This document shows, piece by piece, positions 7,695 through 26,802 of a DNA stretch of 37,768 bases; the first letter of the stretch is position 1; each line of letters begins with the position of its first letter. Source of the stretch: Calditrichota bacterium (GTDB lineage Bacteria > Zhuqueibacterota > Zhuqueibacteria > JANLFK01 > Oleimicrobiaceae); contig JACIZP010000163.1 of assembly GCA_014359355.1 (NCBI GenBank), forward strand, positions 1 to 37,768, given 5' to 3'. The notes under the pieces are model-generated. The model was not told where the DNA came from and did not search any database. It saw only the letters and a list, made by a program, of their open reading frames with translations. Made by a program: the position numbers and the translations under genes.

Positions 7695-9377
7695 TCACTC
7701 CTCTGCATATTGCTGCGCAAAATAGGTCGCGGTGAGCGGCTCGCCTGTTGCCCGTTGGATGAGCTCATCCCAATGGTAGCGCGAGCCAGGGGCGAATACC
7801 CGCTGCCGCAAAAACTCCCCTATGCGTGGCTGCCCCACGTAACCCAACCCCTGTTCGTCCACACCGCGCAGCACCGAAGTGACGAGGTAGTGGTGGAGTT
7901 GCGATGCAAAGAGCTCGCCCAGCATGTAGTTGTGATAGTACACCGGAGAGGAGGAGAAGTGGATCTTGGCTGCCCAATCGGGGGCGTTGCGGTTCTCCGG
8001 CCTGTGCACAAGTTGGTACCTCTCCACCAGGTCCCACCACAGCCGGTTCAAGTCTTGGTCAGGATCGCGGTAGAGCTCTCGCTCAAAGTTCACCATCACC
8101 TGGCACCAGCGTGCAAAGACGAGCTGCTTCAATCGGGTGCTGCGCAGCATTGCCTGCTCACATTCTACGCGCTGCTCGTCGCTCAACTGCAGCATGTTTT
8201 GCAGCCAACTGGGATTGAGCGCCAAGCGGCCAAACAACTCGGCAATCCCCTCGGTGGTAAAGGCATGTGCCGGCTCGCGCAAAAGGTAAGGCAGACGCCT
8301 GTCGATGTAGACGTCGTACACGGCATGGCCAAGCTCATGCAGCATCGTGTCCATCCAGCGGGCATCGTTGCGCACATTGGCTAGCACCCGGACGTCTCCT
8401 TCGCGGTCAATATCCGTGCAGAAAGCATGCGGGTTCTTTCCCTGCCTCTCGAAGAGGTCGCTCCTGGCCAAGACCGAGTCCACTTCGAGCCCGATGCCGC
8501 GATAGAAGGTGCGCGCCAGGTCCACCACGTCCCTGTCCTGGTAGTAGCGGTCCAGGTCCAACTCATGGATTCGCGGCGCCTCCTGGAAAAACGGGTCCTG
8601 GTAGTGCCAGGGTCGCAGCTGCTCAGGAGCAATGCCATAGCGTGCGGCCAGCACCGAGTCCACCTCCCGCTTGGCGCGGCTGAATGGTTCGTCGGTCAGC
8701 TCAGCTAACTCCGCGAAGATGGCCTTGAGGTTTTCTTCGTCTTGTTCCGCCAGGGCGAGCGCCATGACGTAGTAATCTTCAAACCCCAAGGCACGTGCGG
8801 CCTGATTGCGGAGCTTGGCCAATTGAATGAGGTCGGCTGCCACCTTGCCGCCCACTTCCTTGCTGGCCTCCCATGCCCGCTGCCGAAGTTGGCTGTCCGT
8901 CGAAGTGCGCAGGATCTCGGCAATATCGTTGGAGCTGACCGGCCTGCCGTCCAGCGTCGGGCGAAAGGTGTTAAACCCTTGCTCAACCTTTGTGCTCAGT
9001 GCCACAATCTGCGCCAGCAACTCGGCGGGGATTTGGTTGGCCAAGAACTGATTGTAGAGCAGCGTGAGTTGCCTGGCCAGCAAAGGGTCCTTCACCGCCT
9101 CGGACTCCTTGAATGACTTCACCTTGGCAAACGCCGCACTGTCGGACAGTAGTTGTCGCAGGGCAAGCTGGTACTCAGCGTACTGGTCGTAGAACGCCTG
9201 CTCCCCGGTCACGCACGCCTGCCAATACGCCAGGTTCATGGCTTTCTCTAGCGGGCGGACCCTCTCAACGTGGGCGTCTAGCAAAGCACGTACCTCCTGC
9301 TCAACAGCACGTCGGCCACACCCCGCGAGCATGCCAAGGAGTGCCACTGTCATTATGGTCGAACCGAACCTCTGCAT
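7695..9377 (-). CDS. Lipoprotein zinc metallopeptidase (M2/M3-like gluzincin)
   Basis: Predicted envelope-anchored oligopeptidase or dipeptidyl carboxypeptidase. Start ATG 9377 has GGAGGTG upstream and gives 560 aa beginning with a lipoprotein signal (MTVALLGMLAGC, lipid Cys20). The zinc site is HELGH at residues 347-351, with the likely third ligand Glu376 in TTEGIAELF, 29 residues after the first His, as in the M2/M3 families. The late stretch SSSPVYYHNYMLGELFASQL resembles the substrate-binding region of these helical metallopeptidases. The family choice between M2 (ACE-like) and M3 is not settled by eye. It lies downstream of mntP on the same strand and upstream of the BMC promoter. It probably digests short peptides on the periplasmic or outer side; the substrate is unknown. 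Confidence 0.88.
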   Translation of the reverse strand: MQRFGSTIMTVALLGMLAGCGRRAVEQEVRALLDAHVERVRPLEKAMNLAYWQACVTGEQAFYDQYAEYQLALRQLLSDSAAFAKVKSFKESEAVKDPLLARQLTLLYNQFLANQIPAELLAQIVALSTKVEQGFNTFRPTLDGRPVSSNDIAEILRTSTDSQLRQRAWEASKEVGGKVAADLIQLAKLRNQAARALGFEDYYVMALALAEQDEENLKAIFAELAELTDEPFSRAKREVDSVLAARYGIAPEQLRPWHYQDPFFQEAPRIHELDLDRYYQDRDVVDLARTFYRGIGLEVDSVLARSDLFERQGKNPHAFCTDIDREGDVRVLANVRNDARWMDTMLHELGHAVYDVYIDRRLPYLLREPAHAFTTEGIAELFGRLALNPSWLQNMLQLSDEQRVECEQAMLRSTRLKQLVFARWCQVMVNFERELYRDPDQDLNRLWWDLVERYQLVHRPENRNAPDWAAKIHFSSSPVYYHNYMLGELFASQLHHYLVTSVLRGVDEQGLGYVGQPRIGEFLRQRVFAPGSRYHWDELIQRATGEPLTATYFAQQYAEE

Positions 9378-9465
9378 GTCTTCACCTCCCTTTCCTTGCG
9401 GGCAGGCGTCCGGTAGCTGTTCCGCTGAATGCGGGACGAGGGCCGCCAGCCGGTTTCTGGACGAC

Positions 9466-10029
9466 TCATATCCCCCTCTGCAAGTGCGAAACGAGAATGC
9501 GCAACGCCACGGCCACCAAGATCGCGGCCCCCACCAATTGGGTGCTCCTGCCAAACACCCGGTGCGTGTGATGGCCCACCAGGCCACCAATGCCACTGAG
9601 CGAAAACGCCACCACCCCGATGATGGCGCACGAATAGAGCACGGGAAGCCCCAAGAGCGCTAAGGATAGCCCCACCGCCAAGGCGTCGATGCTGGTAGCA
9701 AGAGAGAGTAGCACCAGGGTCAGGCCGCGGGTGGGATCATTCTTCGGAAGCTCCGGCGGCCGCTTGGCCTCGTGCACCATGTGGCCGGCCACGCCAATGA
9801 GCAACGCGAAGGCCACCCAGTGGTCGTACCGCTCCAACCAGCTACTGACCACTGCGCCAATTGCCCAGCCCAGGAGCGGCATGAGGAACTGAAATAGGCC
9901 AAAATGCAAGGAGAGCCGGAGTATCGACCGTGATCGCCAAGGGTGGAGGTTGGCGCCGACTCCTACCGCCACCGCAGTAGCATCCATGGCCAGGCCCACT
10001 GCGATAACGAAAACCGTGAGGAACTCCAT
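9466..10029 (-). CDS. mntP: MntP-type manganese efflux pump
   Basis: Inner-membrane exporter of Mn2+ of the MntP (DUF204) family. The 187-aa product has six hydrophobic segments and the two family motifs related by internal duplication: GLAMDATAVAVGVGAN in the first helix and LATSIDALAVGLSLALLG in the fourth, each with the membrane-buried Asp expected to bind metal. The ATG at 10029 begins MEFLTVFVIAVGLAMD, as usual for the family; upstream in-frame sequence is intergenic. It is divergent from hsp20 and has its own promoter. No Mn riboswitch (yybP-ykoY) could be made out in its roughly 30-base leader. Confidence 0.93.
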   Translation of the reverse strand: MEFLTVFVIAVGLAMDATAVAVGVGANLHPWRSRSILRLSLHFGLFQFLMPLLGWAIGAVVSSWLERYDHWVAFALLIGVAGHMVHEAKRPPELPKNDPTRGLTLVLLSLATSIDALAVGLSLALLGLPVLYSCAIIGVVAFSLSGIGGLVGHHTHRVFGRSTQLVGAAILVAVALRILVSHLQRGI

Positions 10030-13059: not shown

Positions 13060-13087
13060 CCGGAATTCCCGGCGGGGGCGTCCACCA

Positions 13088-13112
13088 GGGCTGTTGATGT
13101 ACAGCCCTTTTT
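13088..13112 (+). terminator. Rho-independent terminator of hsp20-lon
   Basis: GGGCTGT pairs with ACAGCCC around a 6-base loop, followed by TTTTT. It lies 28 bases after the lon stop codon and separates lon from the next transcription unit. Confidence 0.88.
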
Positions 13113-13185: not shown

Positions 13186-14625
13186 GTGGCACAGGCGAAC
13201 TACGCAGAGCTGAGGCAGCGCTTTGAGCACGCAGGCCAGGGGCATGTATTCCGCTTCTGGGAGGAACTGACCCTCGCAGAAAAAGAGCAACTTTTGGCGC
13301 AAGCAGCCAGCATCGACCTGGCCCTCATGGAAGATCTGTGGCGTCGCTACATTCTCACACCGCAAAACCGCTTTTTTGAGGGCGAGCTTGACGAGCCGGA
13401 TGTCATCCCCGTGCCGCGCACGCCCGAGCAGACGGCGCAGGCGGCTCAAGCACGCCTGCGTGGCGAGGAGGCCTTGCGCACCGGCCTTGTGGGTGTCATT
13501 CTGGTCGCAGGGGGACAGAGCTCGCGCTTGGGACGCCCTCATCCCAAAGGGTTGCTGCCAATAGGACCCCTTACCGGCAAGACTCTGTATCAGTTTCACG
13601 CCGAGAAGATCTTGGCCATCAGCCGGCGTGTCGGAAAGCCCATCCCTTGGTACATCATGACCAGCGAGACCACCCACGCTGAAACAGTGGCCCACTTCCG
13701 CGAGAACCGCTTTTTTGGCCTCCCGGAAGACTCGGTGTACTTTTTCCAGCAGAACATGATCCCGGCCATGGACGAACAGGGCAAGTTCTTCTTGGAGGCC
13801 CGCCACCGCATCTTCGTCAACCCTGATGGCCACGGTGGCCTGCTCAAGGCGTTGAGCAGAAGTGGTGCCCTCCACGACATGCAAAGACGCGGGTTGAAGT
13901 GGCTCTTCTACTTTCAGGTCGACAACGTGCTGATCAAGATCTGCGACCCAGTGTTCCTCGGCTATCACCTGCGCGAGGGTGCAGAAGTGTCTGCCAAGGT
14001 GCTTCGGCGGCGCGATGGCCTGGAGAAGATGGGCATTGCCGGCAAAATCGATAGCAAACCTGTCGTGATCGAGTACAGCGACCTGCCGAAGAAGCGATTG
14101 GCCTCTCTGCTGCCGGACGGCAGCCTCCGTTACTGGGCCGGCAGCATCGCGATCCACGTGTTCAATGTCGAGCTGCTGCAGCGGCTGCAGGAATCGGGGT
14201 TCACTCTGCCGTACCACGTCGCGCACAAGAAGATCCCCCACCTCGATGGGGCGGGAAGGGTGGTGGAACCTGAGAAGGAGAACGGCTACAAATTCGAACA
14301 GTTCATCTTCGACGTGCTGCCCCAAGCCCGGAAGGTGGTGTTCATGGAGGTGGCCAGGGACGAAGAGTTCAGCGCGATCAAGTACTCAGAAGGCGCTGAC
14401 TCGCCCGACACCGCTCGGAGGGACATGATTCGCCTGTGGGCTCGCTGGCTGGAGAAGGCAGGCTGCCGCGTGCCGCGCGGTGCCGACGGCGAGCCCAAGT
14501 ATCCCATAGAAATCAGCCCGCTGCGCGCCTTGGATGCCGAGGAACTTGCTGCCAGTCTGTCTACGCCGCTTGCCATCGACGGACCGCTCAATTTGGAGAC
14601 AGAAGAGACCACCCGTGAGCACTGA
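13186..14625 (+). CDS. UDP-N-acetylhexosamine pyrophosphorylase-like nucleotidyltransferase (UAP1/UDPGP family)
   Basis: Predicted to join UTP and a sugar 1-phosphate (GlcNAc-1-P or Glc-1-P) into a UDP-sugar, releasing PPi. The 479-aa product has the UDPGP/UAP nucleotide loop VILVAGGQSSRLG followed by PKGLLPIGP, a VNPDGHGGLLKALSRSG block, FYFQVDNVLIKICDPVFLGY with the metal-binding Asp, and late ENGYKFEQFIFD. This is the eukaryote-like UAP1 type, not the bacterial GlmU type. The start is a GTG with GAGAGG nine bases upstream, giving MAQANYAELRQRFE, a plausible UAP N-terminus. It opens the series leading to the YdbH-like gene; UDP-sugar supply for envelope glycans is the likely role, but the exact sugar cannot be read from sequence. 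Confidence 0.88.
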   Translation: MAQANYAELRQRFEHAGQGHVFRFWEELTLAEKEQLLAQAASIDLALMEDLWRRYILTPQNRFFEGELDEPDVIPVPRTPEQTAQAAQARLRGEEALRTGLVGVILVAGGQSSRLGRPHPKGLLPIGPLTGKTLYQFHAEKILAISRRVGKPIPWYIMTSETTHAETVAHFRENRFFGLPEDSVYFFQQNMIPAMDEQGKFFLEARHRIFVNPDGHGGLLKALSRSGALHDMQRRGLKWLFYFQVDNVLIKICDPVFLGYHLREGAEVSAKVLRRRDGLEKMGIAGKIDSKPVVIEYSDLPKKRLASLLPDGSLRYWAGSIAIHVFNVELLQRLQESGFTLPYHVAHKKIPHLDGAGRVVEPEKENGYKFEQFIFDVLPQARKVVFMEVARDEEFSAIKYSEGADSPDTARRDMIRLWARWLEKAGCRVPRGADGEPKYPIEISPLRALDAEELAASLSTPLAIDGPLNLETEETTREH

Positions 14626-14653: not shown

Positions 14654-17600
14654 ATGCATGGTCAGGCACACACATTCCGACGCAATAGGGGCCGCTGGCT
14701 AAGAGTGTTGGGAGTTGCCGTCGCGCTCTACGTCCTTTTCCTCGCTGTGGGGGGGCTCCTGCTTCGTGTTTTGGTGCCGGCGGACCGTCTGTCGCGGGCG
14801 GTACTAGCCACCCTTGAACACCGCCTCGGCCGTGAACTCTCCGTGGAAAGCATCCAGTTCGGCCTGTTCCGAGGCGTCACCCTGAAAGGGGTGCGCATGG
14901 CGACGCCCCTGGGCGGCGACAGCACCGCATTCCCAATCAAGAGCGCCAGTGCCGAGCGCTTTGTGCTCCACTACCGTCTGCGTTCGCTCTTCAGACGTCG
15001 CCTGGAGATTACCGAGATCGCTCTCCACAAACCGCGGCTTGAACTGTTTTTCTCTGGTCCTTCGCCTGCCGCGCCAGCCGCTGCACCTCCTCCCCAGGAC
15101 TCGCTGCCGCGGGCGATATCCGTTCCGTTGAGTGTGACATTGCAACGCCTGGAAATCCGCGATGCCGACTGCATGGTCACCATCGCCAGCGACACATCAC
15201 GTCTGGAATTCGGCCTCGCCGGGTTTACCTTTGTCGTGTCCACGCTCTATCTGCCGCGGGGCAAGGGTGAGGCCTGGCAGCAGGCAGCGGCTAAGGTAGC
15301 GCTCTCGTCCAATAAGGCTCCGGTCTATTTCCGGCAAGGCGTTGTAAGTGCACCTGGGCACACTGAGGTGAAGTGCCTCTTGGACCTGCAACTCGCCGCC
15401 GAGGCACGCGGGCTTTCGGACCTTGATGCAACGCTCCTCATCGCCGCGCACCAAGGGCAACTCCAGCTACCGGGCGGTCCAGCTTTCTCCAGTGCTCTGC
15501 CCTCTGTGGAAGTCAAAGCCGCGGTCCGCGGGAACATGCCGCAGGGGGAGTTTCTTGTGGAGAGGCTGACCCTTGGCCTTGGCGGGCAGACCCTTCTGGC
15601 ATGCCGTGGGCAGCTCAGCCACCTCAATAGCCAGCCAAAGATGCGCGCGGAGGTGTTAGAAGGCGAGATCTCTTTGGGCAAGCTACTAGGCACGGCAAAG
15701 CCCCTCCTCGCCGAGACGCCATTCTCAGCCCTGCTGCCCGAGCGGCTCTCCGGGACGTTGTCCTTTTCCGGCACGAGCCTTGATTGGGCCTTTCCCTCTC
15801 CTTCTGGCGGAAGTTTTGTGAACGCAAATACCGCTGTGGATCTGCGCGATCTTTCGTTGGTCATGCGCGACGTGGCGACCGTGGAACGGCTCACGCTCGT
15901 CGCGCGAGGGGCCGCCACCGCCGACAGCGCTGGTCTGCGCAAGGGAGAAGCCTCTGCGTTGCTGGCCTTTGACCACGTGGCGTACAACTCACCAGCGCTC
16001 CCCATGACCGCCTCCGGGGGCAGGCTCGAGTTGAAGGCCCTCGCCCCTGAGAGACGGAGCTCGCTCATTACAGACGGCACGCTGAGGGTCGCCAGCCTCA
16101 TGGGAGGAGAGTTGGAGGGCGAGGTGCATCTCTCCACAGGCCGGGCTGCTGCGGCCTGGCGCGGCGATGTGGAGATGGCTGTGCGTCACTTTCCCTTGGG
16201 GTCATTCACCGAAGGACAGGTGCACGGCAGCGTGAGCAGCTCCTTGGGTATGAGAGTGCGAGGGCTCAGCGACATCGGCCTGGAGCTCGCCGTCGGCGTT
16301 GACTCCTTGGCTGCTCTCTTGCAGGGCCGGGAGCAGGCCCTGCCGCCCTTGGAGCTCACCGCGCTGGGCAAGCTGCGCACCAATGTGCGTTTCGACACGC
16401 TGCTGCTGGACTCGTTGCTGCTGCAGGTTGCCGACATGGTTTCGGCGCGTGTGGCAGGAAGCTTTGCGCTCCAGGGACAGCGCTTCTCCCTTGCCTTGCA
16501 GGACCTGACGGTGAACCACCGCCCGCTGCCGCGCCTGCTTCCGGTTGAGCTTCGCGAGCAAATAGGAGTCGTCGCGCTTGAAGGTGCCACCCACGTGCGG
16601 GGCAGCGCTTCTGGCCAACTGGTCGCTGGCACACCTCGCGTCAATGCGCAAGCCTCCGTGAGCTCCTCCATCCGCGCCTCGCTGCCGGCGCTGGGGCTGC
16701 AGGTGTCGGGCACCAAGTTGGGTGCCGAACTCGCGATGACGTCTTCTCTTGCCCGGGCCACAATTGAAGCCCGCGTGGACACCTTGACCATAGCTCAGAT
16801 GCGGGCAGCGCCCATCGTCGGCAGTGGCGCTCGTTTTGAGGTCTCCCTGCCAGAGCTGCAGAGCCTCGTGCTGACGCAGGGGGAAATCTGGGTGCCCGCC
16901 TTTGCCGCAAGAGCAGACCTTTCCGGCTGCATGACACCAGGCGCTGCAGGGCCATCAGGCGCAGTACAGGTAGCCTTCTCCGTGGAGGCCACCGATACCG
17001 TGCGCGTCACCGACACGGTGGGCTTGTTGGGCAGGCTGCTGGCCAAGGCAACCATGCGCATGGAGGGTTCGGTGGCAAGCGTGGAAGGCAACATCTCGAT
17101 TCCAGGCCTTGCCGTGTATCTACCAGCCGGGACCTCGTTGAAGGGCATCCGGGCCTCAATCCCCTTTTCCCAGGCCTTTGACCTCGAGCGCATGGAGCTT
17201 GTGTCGTCGCCCGGGGAGCGGCACGCGTACTCGAGCCCGGCCGGCGCCTTTCCTGCGCTCTTCGCCAGACACTTTGCCGAGACCCTGCCCGAACAGGGCT
17301 GGCTGACCATCGATCGGCTATCCTTTGCCGGCTATGGGGCCAGCAACCTCCGCATGCAACTGTTTGTCGGCGGAGGCAAGCTCATGGTGCAGAGCATACT
17401 GCTGGATGCATACGACGGGAACTTTGGCGGAAGCTTGGCAGTAGAGTTTCCGGCCCTGGATTTGGCACGTGCCCAGTACAAGGTAGAAGGGCACCTGTCC
17501 GGACTGAATTCGGCCCTGCTGGCCGCAAGGACCGGGCAGTCGCCAGAAAAGGGGATCATCAACGCCAACTTCCGCTTTGCCGGCACCGGGTTAGATGTGC

Positions 17601-17914
17601 GGAGGGGAATAGAAGTGGAGGGGTTGTTTCGCATCACCGACATTGGGCCACGGGTGGCCGACAATCTGTTGCGCTCTCTGGACCCTCAAGGCCTGGATGC
17701 CGGCATTCGCAGTGCGCGTTTCTTCATCAACCACGGGTTCAAGCCGCGCGAGATATCCTTTGACCTGCGGCACGCCCACCTCTACCCCAGCATTCGCCTC
17801 TCGCAGCCCTGGTACTTCCCAGTGCGGGTGGGCGGTGGCAAAGTGGAGCTGGCGCGCATTCCGGTGGCCTTCTTCTTGCAGATGATCAAGCAGGAAGCTG
17901 TGCCGACGTACTGA
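14654..17914 (+). CDS. YdbH/AsmA-like envelope protein (predicted intermembrane lipid transport)
   Basis: Large membrane-anchored periplasmic protein of the AsmA-like group. It has an N-terminal transmembrane helix (about residues 16-38, LGVAVALYVLFLAVGGLLL) after a basic start. An AsmA-type opening follows (LEHRLGRELSVESIQFGLFR, VTLKGVRM). About 900 residues of repeating beta-strand sequence come next, and then a conserved C-terminal part (IINANFRFAGTGLDVRRGIE, RSARFFINHGFKPREISFDL). AsmA-like proteins such as YdbH, TamB and YhdP form long grooved beta rods thought to carry phospholipids to the outer membrane. At 1086 aa it is longer than E. coli YdbH. The next gene encodes a YdbL/DUF1318-like protein, the partner found in the ydbH-ynbE-ydbL operon, which is the main reason for preferring YdbH. 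No clear Shine-Dalgarno is seen. Confidence 0.82.
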   Translation: MHGQAHTFRRNRGRWLRVLGVAVALYVLFLAVGGLLLRVLVPADRLSRAVLATLEHRLGRELSVESIQFGLFRGVTLKGVRMATPLGGDSTAFPIKSASAERFVLHYRLRSLFRRRLEITEIALHKPRLELFFSGPSPAAPAAAPPPQDSLPRAISVPLSVTLQRLEIRDADCMVTIASDTSRLEFGLAGFTFVVSTLYLPRGKGEAWQQAAAKVALSSNKAPVYFRQGVVSAPGHTEVKCLLDLQLAAEARGLSDLDATLLIAAHQGQLQLPGGPAFSSALPSVEVKAAVRGNMPQGEFLVERLTLGLGGQTLLACRGQLSHLNSQPKMRAEVLEGEISLGKLLGTAKPLLAETPFSALLPERLSGTLSFSGTSLDWAFPSPSGGSFVNANTAVDLRDLSLVMRDVATVERLTLVARGAATADSAGLRKGEASALLAFDHVAYNSPALPMTASGGRLELKALAPERRSSLITDGTLRVASLMGGELEGEVHLSTGRAAAAWRGDVEMAVRHFPLGSFTEGQVHGSVSSSLGMRVRGLSDIGLELAVGVDSLAALLQGREQALPPLELTALGKLRTNVRFDTLLLDSLLLQVADMVSARVAGSFALQGQRFSLALQDLTVNHRPLPRLLPVELREQIGVVALEGATHVRGSASGQLVAGTPRVNAQASVSSSIRASLPALGLQVSGTKLGAELAMTSSLARATIEARVDTLTIAQMRAAPIVGSGARFEVSLPELQSLVLTQGEIWVPAFAARADLSGCMTPGAAGPSGAVQVAFSVEATDTVRVTDTVGLLGRLLAKATMRMEGSVASVEGNISIPGLAVYLPAGTSLKGIRASIPFSQAFDLERMELVSSPGERHAYSSPAGAFPALFARHFAETLPEQGWLTIDRLSFAGYGASNLRMQLFVGGGKLMVQSILLDAYDGNFGGSLAVEFPALDLARAQYKVEGHLSGLNSALLAARTGQSPEKGIINANFRFAGTGLDVRRGIEVEGLFRITDIGPRVADNLLRSLDPQGLDAGIRSARFFINHGFKPREISFDLRHAHLYPSIRLSQPWYFPVRVGGGKVELARIPVAFFLQMIKQEAVPTY

Positions 17915-17943
17915 AAGAACTCACTTCGGAAGGAGGACGGCCC

Positions 17944-18525
17944 ATGGCACGACACATCGCAGCGGCAGTGCTGCTGGCTGGCATGGTAGTCGGGTGCAGC
18001 ATCCGCGCACCTGAGGTGCAGGTCACCGGCGAGAAGACGGCCTTGGAGAACCAGGTGATTGGCACCTACCAACAGGTGGCGGACGAGAGCTGGATGATCG
18101 CTTCCACGCGTGCAGCAGACAGCGACCAGAAGGCGCAAATGGCCACCGAGAAGAAGGAGGTCCTCGATGCGGTGCAAAACCGCAAGTTCAACAAGGACGA
18201 CATCGACGAGTTCAAGCGCGATGGCGCCTTGGGCGAGAACAATCAGGGCTTCCTGGAGCTCCGGCCCTCGTCCCGGCTGGATCAGGACGCGGAATATCGC
18301 ACCCTGGTGGTCCGGATCATGAACGAGGAGAACCGCGATCGCAAGATCATTTACGATCGGGTCTTGGAACTCAACCCCAATGCGGGACGGGCCGGTTCGG
18401 CTGCCGTCTATGCAGTCTTTGCCAAGATGAACATCGAGGAATCCGCACCTGGCACCTGGGTGCAAGCTGAAGATGGCACCTGGTATCGCAAAGGCAAGGA
18501 GGCTGCTCCCAACGAAAAGAAGTAG
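17944..18525 (+). CDS. YdbL-like DUF1318 lipoprotein
   Basis: Predicted periplasmic-facing lipoprotein of 193 aa. The signal MARHIAAAVLLAGMVVGC places the lipid-modified Cys at 18. The C-terminal half (about 85-185) has the DUF1318/YdbL pattern: KFNKDDIDEFKRDGALGENN, then VVRIMNEENRDRKIIYDRV, and a closing PGTWVQAEDGTWYRK, like the GxWxR end of YdbL. E. coli YdbL is a soluble periplasmic protein, whereas this one has a lipobox and so could combine the YnbE (lipoprotein) and YdbL roles; that is inference. GGAAGGAGG stands well before the ATG. It is 29 bases after the YdbH-like gene and 9 bases before the giant CHAT gene. Confidence 0.85.
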   Translation: MARHIAAAVLLAGMVVGCSIRAPEVQVTGEKTALENQVIGTYQQVADESWMIASTRAADSDQKAQMATEKKEVLDAVQNRKFNKDDIDEFKRDGALGENNQGFLELRPSSRLDQDAEYRTLVVRIMNEENRDRKIIYDRVLELNPNAGRAGSAAVYAVFAKMNIEESAPGTWVQAEDGTWYRKGKEAAPNEKK

Positions 18526-18534
18526 CGGCACCAG

Positions 18535-21500
18535 ATGATCTCCCTGCGGCGCGACATATCCGCGGTTGGGGCTCTCTTGTGGCTGCTCGCGGGCCCACTT
18601 TCGTGCGGCCTGGCGCATGCGCAAGCACCCCTGCCCCATCAGGTGACCACGCACCCAGCCGACGATTTGAGCCCGTCGCTTTCTCCTGACGGCAAGTGGG
18701 TTGCGTTCGCCTCCACGCGGAGCGGCAATCAGGACGTATGGGTGCGACCAGTCCATGGCGGAAAGGCGTACCAGATCACTACACATCAGGCCGACGACTA
18801 TTGTCCGGCCTGGAGTCGCACCGGTGACCGCCTGGCGTTTGTGTCTAAGCGTTCCGATGCCGCCGGCGACATCTGGATGGTCGAGCTCCGTCGCACCGGC
18901 AAAGCGATCCTCGCCAGGGGGGAACCGGTCAGACTCACCGACTATTTAGGCGAAGACGCCTTCCCCTGCTTTTCGCCGGATGGCACAGAGGTGGCCTTCT
19001 GTTCGGACCGCACCGGCCGCATGGAGATCTGGGTGCTCAGGCTGCGGTCAAGGTCGCTCAGAAGGGTCACCTCGCAGGGTGGGACCGAGCCCAAGTGGTC
19101 GCCCGACGGTACATGGCTGGTCTACACCGCGTTCGACACCCTCCGCCGCAAGAGTGTCATCGCCGTCACCCCTGCGCAGCTGGAGACCCAACCAGAGCTG
19201 CCCAGGGAAGTGCCCATCACCGATGGCTCGTGGCTTGACTGCCAACCGGCCTGGTCGCCTACGGGTCACGAGGTCGTCTTCTGCCGCTTCCCCTACGACA
19301 CCAATCACGATGGCAGAATAACGCCTGATGACAATCCGGTGATTGTCCGTGCGCCGGTCAGTCTGCCGTCGTCCCCCTCGCAGCGTCCTTCGGCGCCGAC
19401 GGACCTGCAACTGTGGCTCACCAGTGGCGCGGATTTCGCTTTCGCCCCAAACTGGGCGAGCGGCGAATCGGTCTGTTACGCCTCGAATCGCAGCGGTAAC
19501 CTCGACATCTGGGCGGTGCCTGCAAATGGGCTCATCTCTCGCCAGGCCTCTGCCGCGAGCCAGCTCTCCTATGCGCGTGAGGCTTTTCCCATCCCGGCTT
19601 TGTCGTCTTCAGCCCTATCGGCGCAACAGACGGCGGCTCTTTACGAACGCCTCTTGGCCCTCCGGCGGGTACGTGACTTTTTTCCAGCGGAACGGGCCCC
19701 TGTGGCCTCGGCCAAGCTTGAGATGGCGCGCACCTATCGCGCTCTTGGGCAGGGAGCCATGGCACGGCAGGCGCTCCAGGAGCTCGAGGCAGAATTCCCC
19801 GAACAAGAGGAGGTGCGCGCTCTGGCGGCCGTGGAGAGCATCGACATGGACATGGCCGAAGGGAGGATCGATTCACTCGCTGGAATGCGCACCTTGGCAC
19901 GCCTTCTGGATAACTATCGGCAGCAACCGCCCCTGGCCGTGCCCATCGCCATGCGCTTGGCAGGCCTGCAGCTTGCCACCGCTCAGCATGGCGAGGCTCT
20001 CACCACCTACGGTTGGGTGTTGCAACACCAGGGCGAGAACCGCGGGGCGGGGGCCGAGAGCCAACTTCGCATTGGCGACTGCCTTCTCGCCCTTGGCCGC
20101 GGCGAGGAGGCGGAACGTGCCTATGCTTTGGTGGTAGACCGCTATCCGGAACAGGAGGCCCCGGCGGCGCAGGCCATGGAGCGCCTCTTACATGAGGAGT
20201 TACTGGCCAGCGACCGAGTGGCCCTCTTGCGCCGCTGCCGTGAGGTGACCAACGTCTACCGCTTGCGCCTGCCGCGGGTTGCCGCCTTGGCGCAACTCCG
20301 CGCAGCGGAGCTTCTCCTGGCATCTGGCGACTTCGAGGCGGCGCAGATCGAACTGGCGGCCCTCGAGGCTGACTTCGCGGACCAGCGCACGGTGGTCGCC
20401 CGCAGCCGATTGCTCCTTGCCAAAGCTTATCAAGACGGGGGCGACTGGCGCAAAGCGGTGAGCGTTCTCGAACAAGCACAGGCGGAGTTTGACACGCTGG
20501 CCGGAGGTCGTTGGGCAGCGGCAGCACGGCAGGCCCTTTTCCGCGCCCTCATGCAATCGGGCGAGCAGCTGCTCCAGGCTGCCTACTTTGCGCTCGCCGC
20601 AGCACGTTATCGCCAGGCACTTGAAGTGGCACCCGGGGACATCGAGGCGCACCGGGGCTACATCCAGGCGCAGTACTACGGCCGAGCAATTGACCAGGCC
20701 ACCCGCGAATACCAGGCGCGCCTGGCGCAACACCCTGATGACCCGGTGCTCCTCTACTGCCTCGGCCTATGCCTTTCGTTCAAAGCCACCGAACAAGCGG
20801 AGCTCTATGGCCACCAGGGCCGCATTGACCCTGAGCTCCTGGCTCGCTCCAACAGCATCCTTGACAGGGCCCTCGAGCGCGACTACCGGATGGTGTACGC
20901 CTACCTGACCAAGAGCTACAACTACGAGATGTTGGAGACCTATGACCGCTTGCGCCGGAGTAGACCGCAGACGCTCCCGCGAAGGCTCCTTGAGGCGATC
21001 TCTGCGCCGCTTGTTTCGGTGCTCAGAACGGTCACCATGACCAAGGAAGAGGCCCAAGTACGCAACTACGAGCGAGCCATCGATGCCCTCACCGTGGCCC
21101 TCAGCCTCAATGACGAGAAGGAAAACCCAAAGTTAGAGGCCCGTCTTTGTCGCAATCTGGCCAACAACTACTACAACCTGGCCGAGTTCGGCTATCAAAA
21201 GGCCTACGAGTACTACCATCTCACCCTGCGCTTTGATTCCACCTTCGCGAGCCGCCGCGATGAAGCAATGATGATGGAAAGAATGGGCCATTGCGCACTG
21301 GTGCTGGAGGACTTTGAACGGGGCCCAACCTACCTGCGCCGCGCCATCGACCTATATCGCGACCTCGGCAGAGAAGAACTGGTGCTGCTCAACATAAAAC
21401 GGCTGGCCATGCTCTACCAGGTGGCAGAGGACTATCTCTCAGCTGCCGAGTATTTCGAACAGGCGATCGCCATGGAGACGCGACGCGGCAACCTCGAGGA

Positions 21501-24500
21501 GGTGCGGCGACTCCATCGCAATCTCGCTTACAACTACTGGTTGTTGGGCGAGCCAACCGACGCCTACGCGCATGCCATTCGCGCCCGTGACCTTCTGGAC
21601 AGCGGCAAGCTGAAGGAAGCGAAGGGCACATCCTCGCGCATTCAGGTCGGCGTGTTAGGGTGGTATATCCCCATACCCTTTGTCGACTTGAGCAAGATGG
21701 GGGCGATTGGCGGCAGCGCAGCTTTCGGGTTCACCGCTGTGGAGGAGCGGGCGTTGGTCTACACCATCCTCGGCAACATCCTTGTGGAAACGAAGCGCTA
21801 CGAGGAAGCCATCCGCGAGAACGAGAAGAAGCTGGCCCTGTACCGCAAACGGAAGAATGCCCGCGCTGAGGCAGCGGTGCTCAACAACCTCGGCTACCTG
21901 CAACTGTTGAAGGGGGACCCTCTCAGCGCCTGGCAGCAGTTCGAGCGCAGCTACGACCTTTGTCTGAAGCAGAAGATCGTGGCCGGCGCGGTCGTCAACG
22001 CCATCAATCTCGGACAGCTGGCGTTGCTCCTTGCGGATCCGGCGCTACGCGATGCCGCCGCAACCCGGCTGGACCTCGCGTTGAGCTTCACGGAGGGGCA
22101 GTCGCGGGTTCTGGTGCAGCGGCGCGTGCAACTTCTCAACCTCCTTGGCGCGCTCACTTTGGAACACCAGGTTCAACACACTGGGGAAGCGGACCTTGAA
22201 GACTGCGTGCGGCAAACTGTGGAGGCCTTCGAGCGCGCCGGCTATGCGCAGACGTACTTCGAAGAAGCGCTTAGCCTAAGTCTGATGCGCCGGCTACCAC
22301 GAGAAGAAGCCCTTTCCAGGATGAATTTGGGGCGCTGCTGGGCCGTGCTCGGCGAATGGGAGCACGCAGCCCAACATCTCCTGCAGGCGCGTCGCCTGTG
22401 CCAGACCAGAGGGTACGGCGATCTGCTCTGGCAGGTGAACCAAGGGCTTGCCGAGCTCGCTGACCGCCTCGATGAACGGGCCAGGAGGGCCTTGGGACTG
22501 AGCCTCCCGCGGGTCTACTTTGCCGAGGCGCTCGCCGAGTTGCGCGCCGTGAGCGAGGCTGGCATCACGCGCCTGGTGCTTCCCATGGAGCGCAACCGCC
22601 ACCGCCAATTGTACGAGGAGTGCGCGTTTCATTTGGCGGCCGTCGGCGATACGGTCGGCGCTTTGCAGACCGCAGAGGAGATGCGGGCACAGGCTTTTTT
22701 AGATGCCACCTCCGGCGAGGTCATACGCCTGAGCAGCCCCACGCGCACCAATCTGCTCAACTGGGTGCGCACCTTCCGGGAGGAGTTGACAGCGTCGGAG
22801 CTTAGGGTGCGGCAGCTGAGCACGGTGCTGCAGCCGAACGCCCCGGAGCTGGTCAGGTGGCGCGCCGCGCGGGATAGCTTGCGCCGCGAATACGAACAGG
22901 CCTTCACACGACTCCGCCAGGAAGCGCCTGAACTGGAGGGGCTGGTGACAGTTCACGCCCCCTCGTTAGCGACCGTGCAGCGTACCCTGGAAGGCGGCGA
23001 GGTGGCATTGGCCTTTCTGGTGGGCGATCGGCGGACGCTGCTCTGGGCAGTCACGGCCCAGCGTGTGGCCATGTTCAGCATTCCTGCGGGCGTCGAGGCC
23101 ATTCGCCACTTCACCGAAGGTTTTCTCAACAGCTCAGCAGACGACAGCTCACGCCTGACGGTGGCCGCGCTCTTTCAGCCCGCCGCAGGACTGCTGCGAG
23201 GAGCGCGCCGGGCCATTATCGTGCCGGACGGGCCTCTTTTCCAGCTGCCGATGCAGGCGGCACTGCTCACGTCGTTAGGACAGGACGCGCCCGCAGTGAC
23301 AGTCTGCTCCAGCCTCAACAGCTACCTGCTCGCTGCAAGTCGCCGCACCGTGGGTGGCCCAGTCGTCTTCCTTGCGGACACGCTCCTGCAACAGCCTCTT
23401 AAGGAGCTCGGCTACGTGGTTGTCCTCCTGCCCACCTTGCCGGGCAAAGAAACGCCAGCGCGAGAAGTGTCTCAGGTCCTCCTGGGGAGCAACATCGTAC
23501 ACTGGCGAGCCACCTGGCAGTGGCAAGAGACGGCACCGCTGCACTCGGCGTTGCAGTTGGCCGACGGCCAGCCGGGCTTTTCGCTGCGTCTGCTCGACCT
23601 CTTCGAGGTGGTATCCAATGCCACCGTGTGCGTCATAGACGGAGGGAACGCGGCAGCGTACGGATCGGCTGCACAACTCCTGGACCGCTTGCTGGCCTTC
23701 AGTGGCACCGCTGCGGGCTTGTTGGTGGACGAGGGAACACCGCGCGAGGCACGCCTAGCATTTTACGATGCCTTCTATCGCCAGCTCATGGAAAGACCTC
23801 CTGCTGAAGCCTTCCGCGCGGCAGTGCAGGCAGTCATGGAGGAGGGTAGGGGCACTCTGTCCGTTCAGCTCTTGGGTTACGGCGGCATGAGCAGGGTCGA
23901 GGCCAGCACCTATGCCGAACGGGCGCTGGCAGGCAAGGTGAGAGCAGGGCTTCAGGCAGAACAGGACAAGGACTGGGGCGATGCGGTGCGATTCTATGAG
24001 GAAGCCTTGGCAATGGCCACCGCCCGCCAGGACAGCGCCAGCATCGAGCGCCTCCGCATGCTGATCGTGCGCGCCTCTGCCAACGGGGGCCTTGTGCGCA
24101 AGACTATTCAGTACCAACGCTTGCTGGCCGCCGAGGCCGACCTCAAGGGAGATACGCAGCTTCAGGTGCGGCGCTATCGCAACCTCGCTTCGCTGTACGC
24201 CCAGGCTGAGGACTATGGCGCAGCCATTGCGGCGATGGAGCACGTCATAGAGGTTGCCAGGACCTCTCACGAGCAACTCTTGCCTGAGCTGCACCGCGAG
24301 CTGGGAATTTTGCATGAGCAGGCCGGGCATTATCAGGCTGCGGTTGAGCAATACGAGGCCTCACGCGCGCTGTACGCCCAGGCGGGCGCCAACGAAGGCC
24401 AAGCCCTGAACCTCAGCGACATGGGGCGCGTGGCGCTGCGTTACCTGGAAGACTACCCCCTGGCTCTCCAGCACCTGTCTGCTGCCCTTGCGCTGTTGGA

Positions 24501-26802
24501 GGGCCAAGCGCCCTCGGCAACACTGGTGGAGGTCCTCAACAACCTGGGTCTCGCCTGCGAAATGATGGCCGATTACCGCGCGGCGGTCGACGCGCAGCGT
24601 CGGGCCAGAGAACAGGCGGAAAGGCTGCAACTGCCAGACAAGGTGGCCCTGTGCGAACATTACCTTGCCAACCTCTTTTGGAAAATGGGTGACTATCAGG
24701 AGGCCCTGCAGCACAACCGGCAAGCCTTGCAGGCCTTCGAGAAGCAGGGCGACTTGTCCCTGCAGGCCCTGGCCCTGACAACGCGAGGGCTCATTCAGCT
24801 GAGCATTGGCAACGCACCTCAGGCCTTGCGCGACCAACACAGCGCTTTGGAGCTGGCAATTCGCACGGGCGACCTGCTCGACCAGGCGACAATTCGCAAG
24901 AACATTGGGCTGGTGCATGTCACGCTTGGCGACTATGAAAAGGCGCTCGGAGAATTCGCAACGGCAGCCCACCTTGACAGCACTCTCGGCTCGCAACGAG
25001 GCCTATCCTATGACCTGCGCAACATGGGTGCCCTGTTCCTGCAGAAGGGTCGGTTGACCGAGGCCGACCAGTCGCTACAGGCAGCTCTCGCATTGAGCAA
25101 GGCGGTGGGTGACCGCCGCAACGAAGCGCAATGCCTCTACCACATCGGGGCGGTGCGGCGCGCGCAGCGGAACTGGGAACAGGCTGCTCTTTACTTGGAG
25201 GAAGCAGCCGCACTTGCCCGCTCGCTGTTCGTCCCTGAGGTGGAGTGGCGTGCCCTCCACCAACTGGGCTTGCTGCAGCGCGAGGCCCGCCGCCTCGACG
25301 AGAGTCGCGCCAGCCTGCTGCAGGCGGCGCAGGTCGTCGAGCAGATGCGCGCCCGCATCAAGGTGGCGGAGCATCAGGCTGGCTTTATCAACGACAAACA
25401 AGAGGTCTACGCGGACCTCATCGACCTGCTGATAGAAATGGGACGGGACGAGGAAGCTTTCGCCATTGCGGAACGGGCCCGCTCCCGAGGCTTTTTGGAC
25501 ATGCTCGGCAACCGCCAGCTCGCCCTGGGCGCGCGCGCCAGCCAGGAGCTGTACGATGCCCTCTCGGCCTTGGAAGCGCAGATGCGCAACGTCCAAGAGG
25601 AGATCGCCCGCCTCCGCAGTGTCGAACCAGAACGAGCGAGCGCCCCCCAGAAGGAACGGTTGCAACAATTGAACGGGGAGTTGCTTAGGCTGCGCGGCAG
25701 CTATGAGAGCCAGCTGGTCAGGCTCAAGGAATCGGACCCCCGCTTGGCAGATATGGTCACCGTCGACCCATGGCCGTCATCTCGCTTGCAGACGCTGTTG
25801 CCCCCGGGCGTGGCGGTCGTGGAGTATTTTGTCAGCAGGGACCGCCTCTTCATTTGGCTGGTGACCAGCACGACGCTCAAGGCCTGGGCCACGCCGCTCG
25901 GCCAAGAAGAACTCTACAAGCAAGTGGACCAGTTGCGCCAGGCAATCAACCAGCTCTCCCCCGTGACGCAGCGCAGCGCCCGGCTGTGGCAGGCGCTCCT
26001 CGCACCGGTCGCCCCCTCTCTGGAGGGCAAGGCCACCCTGGTCATCATTCCGCACGGGCCTCTGCACTACTTGCCCTTTGCGTGCCTGGTGGACCCTCAG
26101 GGTCGATATCTGATAGAGACTTTTGCCTTGGCAACCGCGCCCAGCGGCACCGTCCTGGGCATGTGCATGGAGGGCGGAAGCCGGTTTCTTTCCACGCCTC
26201 GCCAGGAGTTCCGCGTGCTCGCCTTGGGCAATCCTGCACTGCCAGGCCAGAGGCGACCGCTCCCCATGGCAGCCAAGGAGGTAGAAAGCATCTCCCGGAG
26301 CTTTGCCAAAGTGGACAAGTTCCTGGGCACCGCCGCCACCGAGACGGTGGTCAAGAGCGCCCAGAGCCCCTACGACCTCTATCTCTTCTCCTGCCACGGC
26401 GAGTACGATCCAGCCAACCCCTTATTTTCCTCGCTGCTCCTGACGCCCGATAAAGACAACGACGGGCGGCTGGAGGCGCGCGAGGTGTTTGCTTTGCGCA
26501 TGGAGAGCTATCTGGTGGCCATGAGCGCCTGCGAGACAGCGCTGAGCTCTATCGCCGGCGGTGACGAGATCATTGGCCTGACGCGCAGTTTTGTCTTCGC
26601 CGGGGCCTCTTCACTGTTTGCCAGCCTGTGGAAAGTCGATGACTTGGCCACGGCGGTCATGGTGAAGCGCTTCGTGCGGTACTTGGCGGAGGACGAAAGC
26701 AGAGCCCGTGCGCTCCAGCGCGCGCAACTGCTCGTGATGAATGAGGTTAACGCCCACCCGGCCTACTGGGCAGCGTTCCAGTTGATAGGCGACTTTCGGT
26801 AA
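18535..26802 (+). CDS. Giant exported propeller-TPR-CHAT-TPR-CHAT protein (caspase-like)
   Basis: A 2755-aa protein with a signal peptide (about 1-31, cleavage after GLAHAQA). Residues about 36-340 are TolB/PD40-like propeller repeats (SPSLSPDGKWVAFAST, FPCFSPDGTEVAFCSDR, APNWASGESVCYASNR). A long TPR array spans about 385-1370, then a coiled linker and a first CHAT domain (about 1475-1785). A second TPR array (about 1800-2310), linker and second CHAT (about 2400-2755) follow. CHAT domains are caspase-like Cys peptidases. CHAT2 has the dyad His2621 (FSCHGEYDP) and Cys2666 (AMSACETAL); in CHAT1 the matching sites read Trp1661 and Gly1704, so it looks inactive. EF-hand-like loops occur at 255-266 and 2639-2650. 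It probably senses something through propeller and TPRs and cuts a partner in the envelope or outside; the substrate is unknown. It follows the YdbL-like gene by 9 bases with no clear Shine-Dalgarno, so translation is probably coupled. Confidence 0.9.
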   Translation: MISLRRDISAVGALLWLLAGPLSCGLAHAQAPLPHQVTTHPADDLSPSLSPDGKWVAFASTRSGNQDVWVRPVHGGKAYQITTHQADDYCPAWSRTGDRLAFVSKRSDAAGDIWMVELRRTGKAILARGEPVRLTDYLGEDAFPCFSPDGTEVAFCSDRTGRMEIWVLRLRSRSLRRVTSQGGTEPKWSPDGTWLVYTAFDTLRRKSVIAVTPAQLETQPELPREVPITDGSWLDCQPAWSPTGHEVVFCRFPYDTNHDGRITPDDNPVIVRAPVSLPSSPSQRPSAPTDLQLWLTSGADFAFAPNWASGESVCYASNRSGNLDIWAVPANGLISRQASAASQLSYAREAFPIPALSSSALSAQQTAALYERLLALRRVRDFFPAERAPVASAKLEMARTYRALGQGAMARQALQELEAEFPEQEEVRALAAVESIDMDMAEGRIDSLAGMRTLARLLDNYRQQPPLAVPIAMRLAGLQLATAQHGEALTTYGWVLQHQGENRGAGAESQLRIGDCLLALGRGEEAERAYALVVDRYPEQEAPAAQAMERLLHEELLASDRVALLRRCREVTNVYRLRLPRVAALAQLRAAELLLASGDFEAAQIELAALEADFADQRTVVARSRLLLAKAYQDGGDWRKAVSVLEQAQAEFDTLAGGRWAAAARQALFRALMQSGEQLLQAAYFALAAARYRQALEVAPGDIEAHRGYIQAQYYGRAIDQATREYQARLAQHPDDPVLLYCLGLCLSFKATEQAELYGHQGRIDPELLARSNSILDRALERDYRMVYAYLTKSYNYEMLETYDRLRRSRPQTLPRRLLEAISAPLVSVLRTVTMTKEEAQVRNYERAIDALTVALSLNDEKENPKLEARLCRNLANNYYNLAEFGYQKAYEYYHLTLRFDSTFASRRDEAMMMERMGHCALVLEDFERGPTYLRRAIDLYRDLGREELVLLNIKRLAMLYQVAEDYLSAAEYFEQAIAMETRRGNLEEVRRLHRNLAYNYWLLGEPTDAYAHAIRARDLLDSGKLKEAKGTSSRIQVGVLGWYIPIPFVDLSKMGAIGGSAAFGFTAVEERALVYTILGNILVETKRYEEAIRENEKKLALYRKRKNARAEAAVLNNLGYLQLLKGDPLSAWQQFERSYDLCLKQKIVAGAVVNAINLGQLALLLADPALRDAAATRLDLALSFTEGQSRVLVQRRVQLLNLLGALTLEHQVQHTGEADLEDCVRQTVEAFERAGYAQTYFEEALSLSLMRRLPREEALSRMNLGRCWAVLGEWEHAAQHLLQARRLCQTRGYGDLLWQVNQGLAELADRLDERARRALGLSLPRVYFAEALAELRAVSEAGITRLVLPMERNRHRQLYEECAFHLAAVGDTVGALQTAEEMRAQAFLDATSGEVIRLSSPTRTNLLNWVRTFREELTASELRVRQLSTVLQPNAPELVRWRAARDSLRREYEQAFTRLRQEAPELEGLVTVHAPSLATVQRTLEGGEVALAFLVGDRRTLLWAVTAQRVAMFSIPAGVEAIRHFTEGFLNSSADDSSRLTVAALFQPAAGLLRGARRAIIVPDGPLFQLPMQAALLTSLGQDAPAVTVCSSLNSYLLAASRRTVGGPVVFLADTLLQQPLKELGYVVVLLPTLPGKETPAREVSQVLLGSNIVHWRATWQWQETAPLHSALQLADGQPGFSLRLLDLFEVVSNATVCVIDGGNAAAYGSAAQLLDRLLAFSGTAAGLLVDEGTPREARLAFYDAFYRQLMERPPAEAFRAAVQAVMEEGRGTLSVQLLGYGGMSRVEASTYAERALAGKVRAGLQAEQDKDWGDAVRFYEEALAMATARQDSASIERLRMLIVRASANGGLVRKTIQYQRLLAAEADLKGDTQLQVRRYRNLASLYAQAEDYGAAIAAMEHVIEVARTSHEQLLPELHRELGILHEQAGHYQAAVEQYEASRALYAQAGANEGQALNLSDMGRVALRYLEDYPLALQHLSAALALLEGQAPSATLVEVLNNLGLACEMMADYRAAVDAQRRAREQAERLQLPDKVALCEHYLANLFWKMGDYQEALQHNRQALQAFEKQGDLSLQALALTTRGLIQLSIGNAPQALRDQHSALELAIRTGDLLDQATIRKNIGLVHVTLGDYEKALGEFATAAHLDSTLGSQRGLSYDLRNMGALFLQKGRLTEADQSLQAALALSKAVGDRRNEAQCLYHIGAVRRAQRNWEQAALYLEEAAALARSLFVPEVEWRALHQLGLLQREARRLDESRASLLQAAQVVEQMRARIKVAEHQAGFINDKQEVYADLIDLLIEMGRDEEAFAIAERARSRGFLDMLGNRQLALGARASQELYDALSALEAQMRNVQEEIARLRSVEPERASAPQKERLQQLNGELLRLRGSYESQLVRLKESDPRLADMVTVDPWPSSRLQTLLPPGVAVVEYFVSRDRLFIWLVTSTTLKAWATPLGQEELYKQVDQLRQAINQLSPVTQRSARLWQALLAPVAPSLEGKATLVIIPHGPLHYLPFACLVDPQGRYLIETFALATAPSGTVLGMCMEGGSRFLSTPRQEFRVLALGNPALPGQRRPLPMAAKEVESISRSFAKVDKFLGTAATETVVKSAQSPYDLYLFSCHGEYDPANPLFSSLLLTPDKDNDGRLEAREVFALRMESYLVAMSACETALSSIAGGDEIIGLTRSFVFAGASSLFASLWKVDDLATAVMVKRFVRYLAEDESRARALQRAQLLVMNEVNAHPAYWAAFQLIGDFR

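Follow-up and report, generated by a model that had tools for sequence, protein, structure and literature searches.

The Escherichia coli genes ydbH, ynbE and ydbL are the closest described counterparts of the genes considered here; even in E. coli, the role of YdbL has only been proposed. The E. coli set moves phospholipids between the two membranes, and its loss is lethal in combination with that of YhdP and TamB. LbcA of Pseudomonas aeruginosa and NlpI of E. coli, the lipoprotein partners of the envelope proteases CtpA and Prc, are of TPR type. An interaction between YdbH and YnbE is described in excerpts of two reports (PMC12977461, PMC11784454). In excerpts of a third (PMC12569750), plasmid-borne ydbH, tamB or yhdP lowers CtpA activity in P. 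aeruginosa, the level of an LbcA-CtpA substrate goes up with these plasmids only in the presence of ctpA, and stability assays with yhdP bear this out. We analysed a contig of the KSB1 phylum (JACIZP010000163.1, assembly GCA_014359355.1; all 37,768 nucleotides of it are referred to as the window), one of 395 contigs of its own genome (G000). Three consecutive plus strand genes in the window encode an AsmA-like protein (Y), a DUF1318 lipoprotein (D) and an exported giant with CHAT domains (C). Genome comparisons make a strong case that Y-D-C is a real, phylum-wide gene set.

We searched 82 KSB1 genomes, with counts of C resting on the three best-scored candidates per genome. D was found in 57 genomes, Y in 60 and orthologues of C in 60; all three genes were present in 55 genomes, none in 20, and seven genomes had a partial set. 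The partial genomes have Y only (G007 and G029, weak or short matches), D and C (G018 and G065) or Y and C (G060, G061 and G062, in assemblies 56-88% complete). Co-occurrence of D and C has a Fisher p of 4.5e-17 over the 82 genomes with kinship ignored. D and C are jointly absent from families f2 (8 genomes) and f12 (7 genomes), from genus g22 of family f7 (both genomes, 96 and 91% complete) and from genomes G005 and G006 of family f16.

Gene order is conserved as well, more than chance would give. In 48 of 57 genomes C lies on the strand of D and no more than 3 kb behind it (within 600 bases in 42), and D follows Y within 3 kb in 38 of 55. The nine D-C misses are G011, G038 and G052, where contigs end, together with G074-G078 and G081, all of family f13. 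The first-pass annotation had suggested a search for the same order in related genomes and had named Y and D staying together with C elsewhere as the contrary case; no such case was seen in the readable KSB1 genomes. The only tabulated Y-D pairs without a neighbouring C are those of G011, G038 and G052, all at contig ends; the G052 contig still includes the start of C, one inserted gene after Y-D. Links between the genes break singly, so that C keeps company with either partner: in families f9-f11 D and C are together and Y is elsewhere or was not found, while three genomes of f13 (G075-G077) have C next to Y, about 1.1 kb apart, and D elsewhere. Genes inserted within the set are not constant across families; they include a PMT_2 glycosyltransferase gene between D and C in f7 (L121:5683-7221, L137:8376-9935) and two genes, one solute-binding-like, between Y and D in f15 (L127:6836-9140).

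In the window, the gaps are 29 bases (Y-D) and 9 bases (D-C), as the first-pass annotation had stated, and open reading frames (ORFs) confirm the three genes on the plus strand. Its reading of the locus as one operon is upheld by the short or overlapping gaps between set genes that are kept across families; the gene tables of relatives' loci come from a simple ORF picker, and some starts (and negative gaps) in them are upstream-start-codon artefacts. No plus strand terminator-like site was found in the gaps between the UDPGP-family gene preceding Y and the dGTPase gene following C, which is weak evidence given that terminator-like matches were no commoner than in shuffled sequence.

The best evidence on function comes from two genomes in which Y-D-C is replaced. 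Pfam DUF1318 matches 58 of the 82 genomes, among them G005 and G006, which lack Y, the KSB1-type D and C. Instead, both carry exactly the classic set in the E. coli order ydbH-ynbE-ydbL (G005, contig C94, L253:3469-6790; G006, contig C501, L254:1-2352). The first gene encodes a true PF11739 YdbH-like protein, the second a small lipoprotein, alignable with E. coli YnbE via a P-x-I-T...N-x-K motif, and the third a DUF1318 protein of 139-140 amino acids without the N-terminal block or lipobox of D. The Pfam YnbE model PF13617 matched none of the 82 genomes, and it also misses the YnbE-like proteins of these two. KSB1 genomes thus have the classic set, Y-D-C or neither, and C occurs only with Y-D-C. 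Because the classic set replaces Y-D-C in G005 and G006 (two genomes only, G006 being 77% complete), Y-D-C appears to be its functional counterpart, and the comparison with ydbH-ynbE-ydbL in the first-pass annotation is borne out.

A single scan, in which the C alignment was run against named genomes, gave 132 stretches and 40 confirmed loci. Outside KSB1, C was found in LCP-89, in a LacPavin metagenome-assembled genome and in Delongbacteria; a few records bear other names. D and C are adjacent in LCP-89 and LacPavin (gaps of 12 and 6 bases), with Y elsewhere. Among Delongbacteria all 13 genomes had the front half of C, 10 of the 13 had D and all three searched had Y, and the set genes were unlinked in the loci read. 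The Delongbacteria gene before Y has a histidine-kinase-type ATPase domain (L213:1597-2403; L214:1691-2497 is similar by eye). A FecR-domain gene lies between C and Y in one f13 genome of KSB1 (G076, L175:5218-6021), and genes that look FecR-like by eye also follow C in LCP-89 and LacPavin (L155, L156).

Y scores below the Pfam cut-offs for both DUF748 (39 bits) and YhdP (18.7 bits). Membership in the YdbH family is ruled out by sequence: PF11739 had no match to Y in the genome search, and hhalign of Y with E. coli YdbH gave a probability of 0.2%. The name 'YdbH-like' used in the first-pass annotation thus lacks support from sequence, and 'AsmA-like' is the safer one. No match to Y was found among solved structures by sequence. 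The AlphaFold2 model (19 sequences; mean pLDDT 81.8, pTM 0.54) has an N-terminal helix (residues 9-40) followed by a nearly all-beta structure of about 50 strands. The top Foldseek match of this model is the LPD-3 complex (E 7.9e-7, prob 0.97), and the Atg2 N-terminus matches with prob 0.99, both with low TM-scores; the VIA alignment of Y gave generic beta/barrel matches (residues 332-766) and was uninformative. Fold and gene context suggest that Y is likely a lipid bridge.

D matches Pfam DUF1318 with 51.7 bits (cut-off 27), E. coli YdbL by hhalign (91.8%, E 7e-7) and PDB entry 28oj, a 'probable chaperone-like protein YdbL' (E 0.0034). The lipid anchor attributed to D in the first-pass annotation is well founded, as D has a lipobox with Cys18, followed by Ser, and all 25 D proteins aligned share this Cys. 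The next residue in these proteins is Ser, Thr, Gly or Ala; by the E. coli sorting rule, such residues after the lipidated Cys direct a lipoprotein to the outer membrane, and D is therefore probably lipidated and located there. D combines lipid anchor and YdbL domain in one protein. The strongly conserved block that lies between anchor and domain (Table 1) is found neither in E. coli YdbL nor in the short DUF1318 proteins of G005 and G006. We considered a YnbE hidden in the N-terminus of D and found it unsupported (hhalign with YnbE 6.5%).

C consists of a beta-propeller, TPRs, a decayed CHAT domain, further TPRs and an intact CHAT domain, in this order (Table 1). A hydrophobic N-terminal stretch is present in 25 of 25 mapped C relatives (with a lipobox-like motif in one), and export to the periplasm is likely. 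The second CHAT matches Pfam with 222.6 bits (cut-off 24), and 'exported CHAT giant', as C was first described, remains apt. The first CHAT is without the His-Cys dyad in every giant read. A model of residues 2256-2755 (24 sequences; mean pLDDT 83.8, pTM 0.83) matches the TPR-CHAT of Craspase (Z 32.5, rmsd 3.9, 389 residues) and separase (ctSPD structure 5fby; Z 27.0, rmsd 3.0, 311 residues), followed by gingipains (Z 19.2) and caspases (about 12). By sequence, too, the best PDB matches are the CHAT proteins of Craspase entries (E 5.6e-9). Additional CHAT proteins whose match to C is confined to its back half occur in many KSB1 genomes (e.g. in G000, contig C301:4799-6322), and at four loci (L083, L095, L099, L100) a second gene of about 675 amino acids, resembling part of C, lies near the set.

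Table 1. Features of the Y-D-C locus, in window coordinates
Feature	Position	Strand	Basis or remark
UDPGP-family nucleotidyltransferase, 28 bases before Y	13186..14625	+	Pfam; kept in families f1, f4-f7 only
Y: AsmA-like protein, 1086 aa; candidate intermembrane lipid bridge	14654..17914	+	ORF, Pfam, AlphaFold2 model, Foldseek
D: DUF1318 (YdbL-domain) lipoprotein, 193 aa	17944..18525	+	ORF, Pfam, hhalign
D residues 18-86: Cys18 and conserved block APEVxVTGEKTALENQVIGTY...NRKFNKDD	17995..18201	+	alignment
D residues 87-183: YdbL/DUF1318 domain	18202..18492	+	Pfam, hhalign, PDB match
C: exported giant, 2755 aa	18535..26802	+	ORF, Pfam
C: likely Sec signal peptide (AHA-Q cleavage, read by eye)	18535..18621	+	sequence
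C residues 35-360: PD40/TolB-type beta-propeller	18637..19614	+	
C residues 690-1160: first TPR block, best conserved front part	20602..22014	+	kept in dyad-less giants
C residues about 1545-1771: decayed first CHAT	23167..23847	+	Pfam 34.3 bits, cut-off 24
C residues 1790-2300: second TPR block	23902..25434	+	decays with CHAT where dyad lost
C residues 2481-2753: second CHAT, separase/Csx29-type fold	25975..26793	+	
Catalytic His2621 codon (FSCHG)	26395..26397	+	
Catalytic Cys2666 codon (MSACE)	26530..26532	+	

We propose that Y-D-C is an envelope module, the KSB1 version of YdbH-YnbE-YdbL, in which C would be both a scaffold and a separase-type protease acting on or through D; we consider this proposal about equally balanced between right and wrong. 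Y would be an inner-membrane-anchored AsmA-like bridge carrying phospholipids across the periplasm. D, as an outer-membrane lipoprotein, would unite the roles of YnbE (the lipid-anchored partner) and YdbL (the chaperone-like domain). In the periplasm, the propeller and first TPR block of C would hold the Y-D assembly, while its C-terminal TPR-CHAT, a separase-type cysteine protease, would cut D or an envelope substrate presented by D, depending on the state of the bridge. We infer from sequence lipid transport by Y, contacts among the three proteins, proteolysis and the part of D as substrate or adaptor alike; the target of the protease is a guess guided by the rate of change of D. That a protease could be tied to lipid bridges is plausible by analogy with the case of P. 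aeruginosa CtpA.

The His-Cys dyad is kept in 40 of the 50 KSB1 giants readable that far (10 of the 60 C genes are unreadable to the second CHAT owing to contig ends and one likely frameshift), as well as in LCP-89, LacPavin and nine of nine readable Delongbacteria. Seven KSB1 giants have at most a dyad-less CHAT remnant (G035, G040, G041, G042, G043, G044 and G047), and three stop before the dyad (G004, G031 and G045). In the five dyad-less giants that were aligned, identity to the window protein falls to 0.15-0.24 over the second TPR block and CHAT and is unchanged over the propeller and front TPR block. In the front-half tree, f7 and f5 genomes with the dyad (0.981) come between the dyad-less clade of f5 (support 1.0) and f6 (0.993), and f3 and f16 stand apart, which makes four dyad losses in total; the f3 loss rests on G031 alone and the f16 loss on G004 alone. 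Since four lineages do without the protease part, what stays constant in C, as far as sequences tell, is its propeller-TPR front half. The protease for the bridge suggested by the first-pass annotation thus gains a fold and a conserved dyad, but as a reading it is too simple.

C might rather serve chiefly to scaffold or tether the bridge structurally, with CHAT as a docking domain and proteolysis secondary. We think this unlikely, even though the propeller, the first TPR block and gene order are kept where dyad or CHAT is lost and the first CHAT of all giants read is a decayed one. Where giants have the dyad, their second CHAT is conserved better than any other part (mean column identity 0.62, compared with 0.57 for the front TPR block and 0.54 for the propeller), and a pure docking domain need not keep both catalytic residues, as is seen throughout the dyad-bearing KSB1, LCP-89, LacPavin and Delongbacteria proteins. 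Conservation and predicted fold lend good support to the putative protease function of C.

The bearing of the protease on D was assessed from rates of change. In the window's class, identity of D to other-class genomes is 0.471 for 27 dyad-bearing and 0.371 for 7 dyad-less genomes, while the values for Y are 0.201 and 0.190 (these genomes are not independent of one another). When branch lengths were fitted on the front-half tree, with G034, G046 and G030 (unreadable C-terminus) grouped with the dyad-less clades containing them, the D/core branch ratio is 1.19 in dyad-less clades versus 0.60 elsewhere (0.34-1.0); the Y/core ratio is 1.26 versus 1.59. By lineage, D/core is 1.30 in f3, 1.36 in f6, 1.13 in f16 and 0.94 in the f5 clade. 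Since D evolves faster in three of the four dyad-less lineages, the conserved part of D may be constrained by an active CHAT, as substrate or docking partner; this is a hint, not proof. A more specific form of the proposal, which we think less likely than not, is that lipid flow or bridge assembly gates a periplasmic TPR-CHAT cutting D or a D-held substrate, that a single complex would thereby couple membrane supply to a cut in the envelope, and that the protease was switched off four times with the scaffold role kept.

Several findings weigh against the proposed module. Foldseek TM-scores for Y are 0.05-0.24, LptD, ApoB and many barrels are among its matches, and Y has no sequence kinship with E. 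coli YdbH. All three genes are missing from 20 of the 82 KSB1 genomes. Ten of 50 readable giants lack the protease or have a truncated one although gene order is retained; the protease is therefore not needed for the shared function. As for D, the dyad-less f5 clade shows no acceleration (0.94) compared with its f5 and f7 sisters (0.91 and 0.92), the dyad-bearing lineage f19 reaches a D/core ratio of 1.0, and the front TPR block of C is also slightly less conserved in dyad-less genomes (0.323 versus 0.345). Nor is the candidate stretch NR-KFNKDD of D invariant; a single cleavage motif there was rejected, as other-class genomes have Q for R though the dyad is intact, and we claim no cleavage site.

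A further alternative is that the protease acts on cell-wall hydrolases or other envelope proteins and that the bridge is its signal, in parallel with LbcA-CtpA and NlpI-Prc. A TPR scaffold, a protease and a lipoprotein do share one operon here, and excerpts of PMC12569750 link AsmA bridges to CtpA activity. The faster evolution of D in three dyad-less lineages points to D instead, and no constantly linked hydrolase gene was seen among neighbours, most of which were not named; we rate this alternative as clearly improbable. Less credit still goes to quality control or assembly, the proposal of the first-pass annotation, by which C would trim or remove misassembled Y or D. The shared operon, the probable shared compartment and the chaperone-like YdbL domain of D are consistent with it, but the dyad was lost in four lineages without loss of Y and D, and nothing points to Y as a substrate, its Y/core rates not being raised. 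Its other suggestion, a death or defence switch tied to the envelope, here taken as an effector sensing envelope damage, is hardly credible: CHAT proteases do act as effectors in defence systems, but PADLOC gives only a generic TPR match for C (and none for Y or D), and C is orthologous, with one full-length copy per genome inherited with Y and D over whole families.

Upstream of the set, a terminator-like hairpin (13087-13108) lies after lon and before the UDPGP gene, which is probably the first gene of the transcript in the window; because this site separates lon from the UDPGP gene, lon was set aside as a partner. The UDPGP gene is upstream of Y in 13 of 13 fetched regions showing both (families f1, f4-f7), and it is possibly tied to envelope sugar supply. 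Downstream, the dGTPase gene follows C in only 2 of 34 fetched regions showing C, both from the window's own family, and the dGTPase-ABC genes were rejected as set members as the run includes them only in that family. On the minus strand of the window (7695-9596), a 633-amino acid ORF with a HELGH motif is apparently a zinc peptidase, with a lipoprotein-like start inside.

No paper joining KSB1 with 'CHAT domain' was found in our literature search, DUF1318 came up in one unrelated paper, and reports of the Y-D-C gene set were absent among the matches listed; as far as these searches can tell, Y-D-C is new as a combination. Much about the assembly, placement and regulation of AsmA-type lipid bridges is still to be learned, and Y-D-C is a new handle on these questions, since nature supplies versions of it without the dyad as well as genomes where the classic set stands in its place. 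The gene set suggests that the supply of lipids is coupled to the cutting of envelope proteins. If our proposal is true, the separase/Csx29 protease fold would be at work in the periplasm in an apparent housekeeping role, in a one-operon parallel to the reported phospholipid-transport control of LbcA-CtpA and NlpI-Prc.

Comparison with known systems brings out what is particular to Y-D-C. Like E. coli ydbH-ynbE-ydbL, it has adjacent, co-directional genes in which an AsmA-type protein is followed by a small envelope gene ending in a DUF1318/YdbL domain. Unlike in E. coli, Y stands outside the YdbH sequence family, there is no separate YnbE (the Y-D gap leaves no gene), D is itself a lipoprotein with about 65 extra residues, and a propeller-TPR-CHAT protein of 2.7 thousand residues is added. 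That protein shares with Csx29 of Craspase (type III-E CRISPR), its best structural match, a TPR block followed by a CHAT with a His-Cys dyad; in contrast to Csx29, it is exported, is about four times as long, has a propeller and a second, decayed CHAT, and is linked to lipid-bridge genes. As in separase, a separase-type protease fold stands behind a long helical-repeat part, and the decayed CHAT before the active one presumably recalls separase's pseudo-protease domain, whereas C is bacterial, extracytoplasmic, without cohesin and ordered TPR-decayed CHAT-TPR-CHAT. LbcA-CtpA and NlpI-Prc differ in having proteases of an unrelated family, separate genes and no bridge in the same operon; they resemble Y-D-C as envelope proteases with an outer-membrane lipoprotein partner, whose activity, according to excerpts of PMC12569750, responds to AsmA lipid bridges or phospholipid transport.

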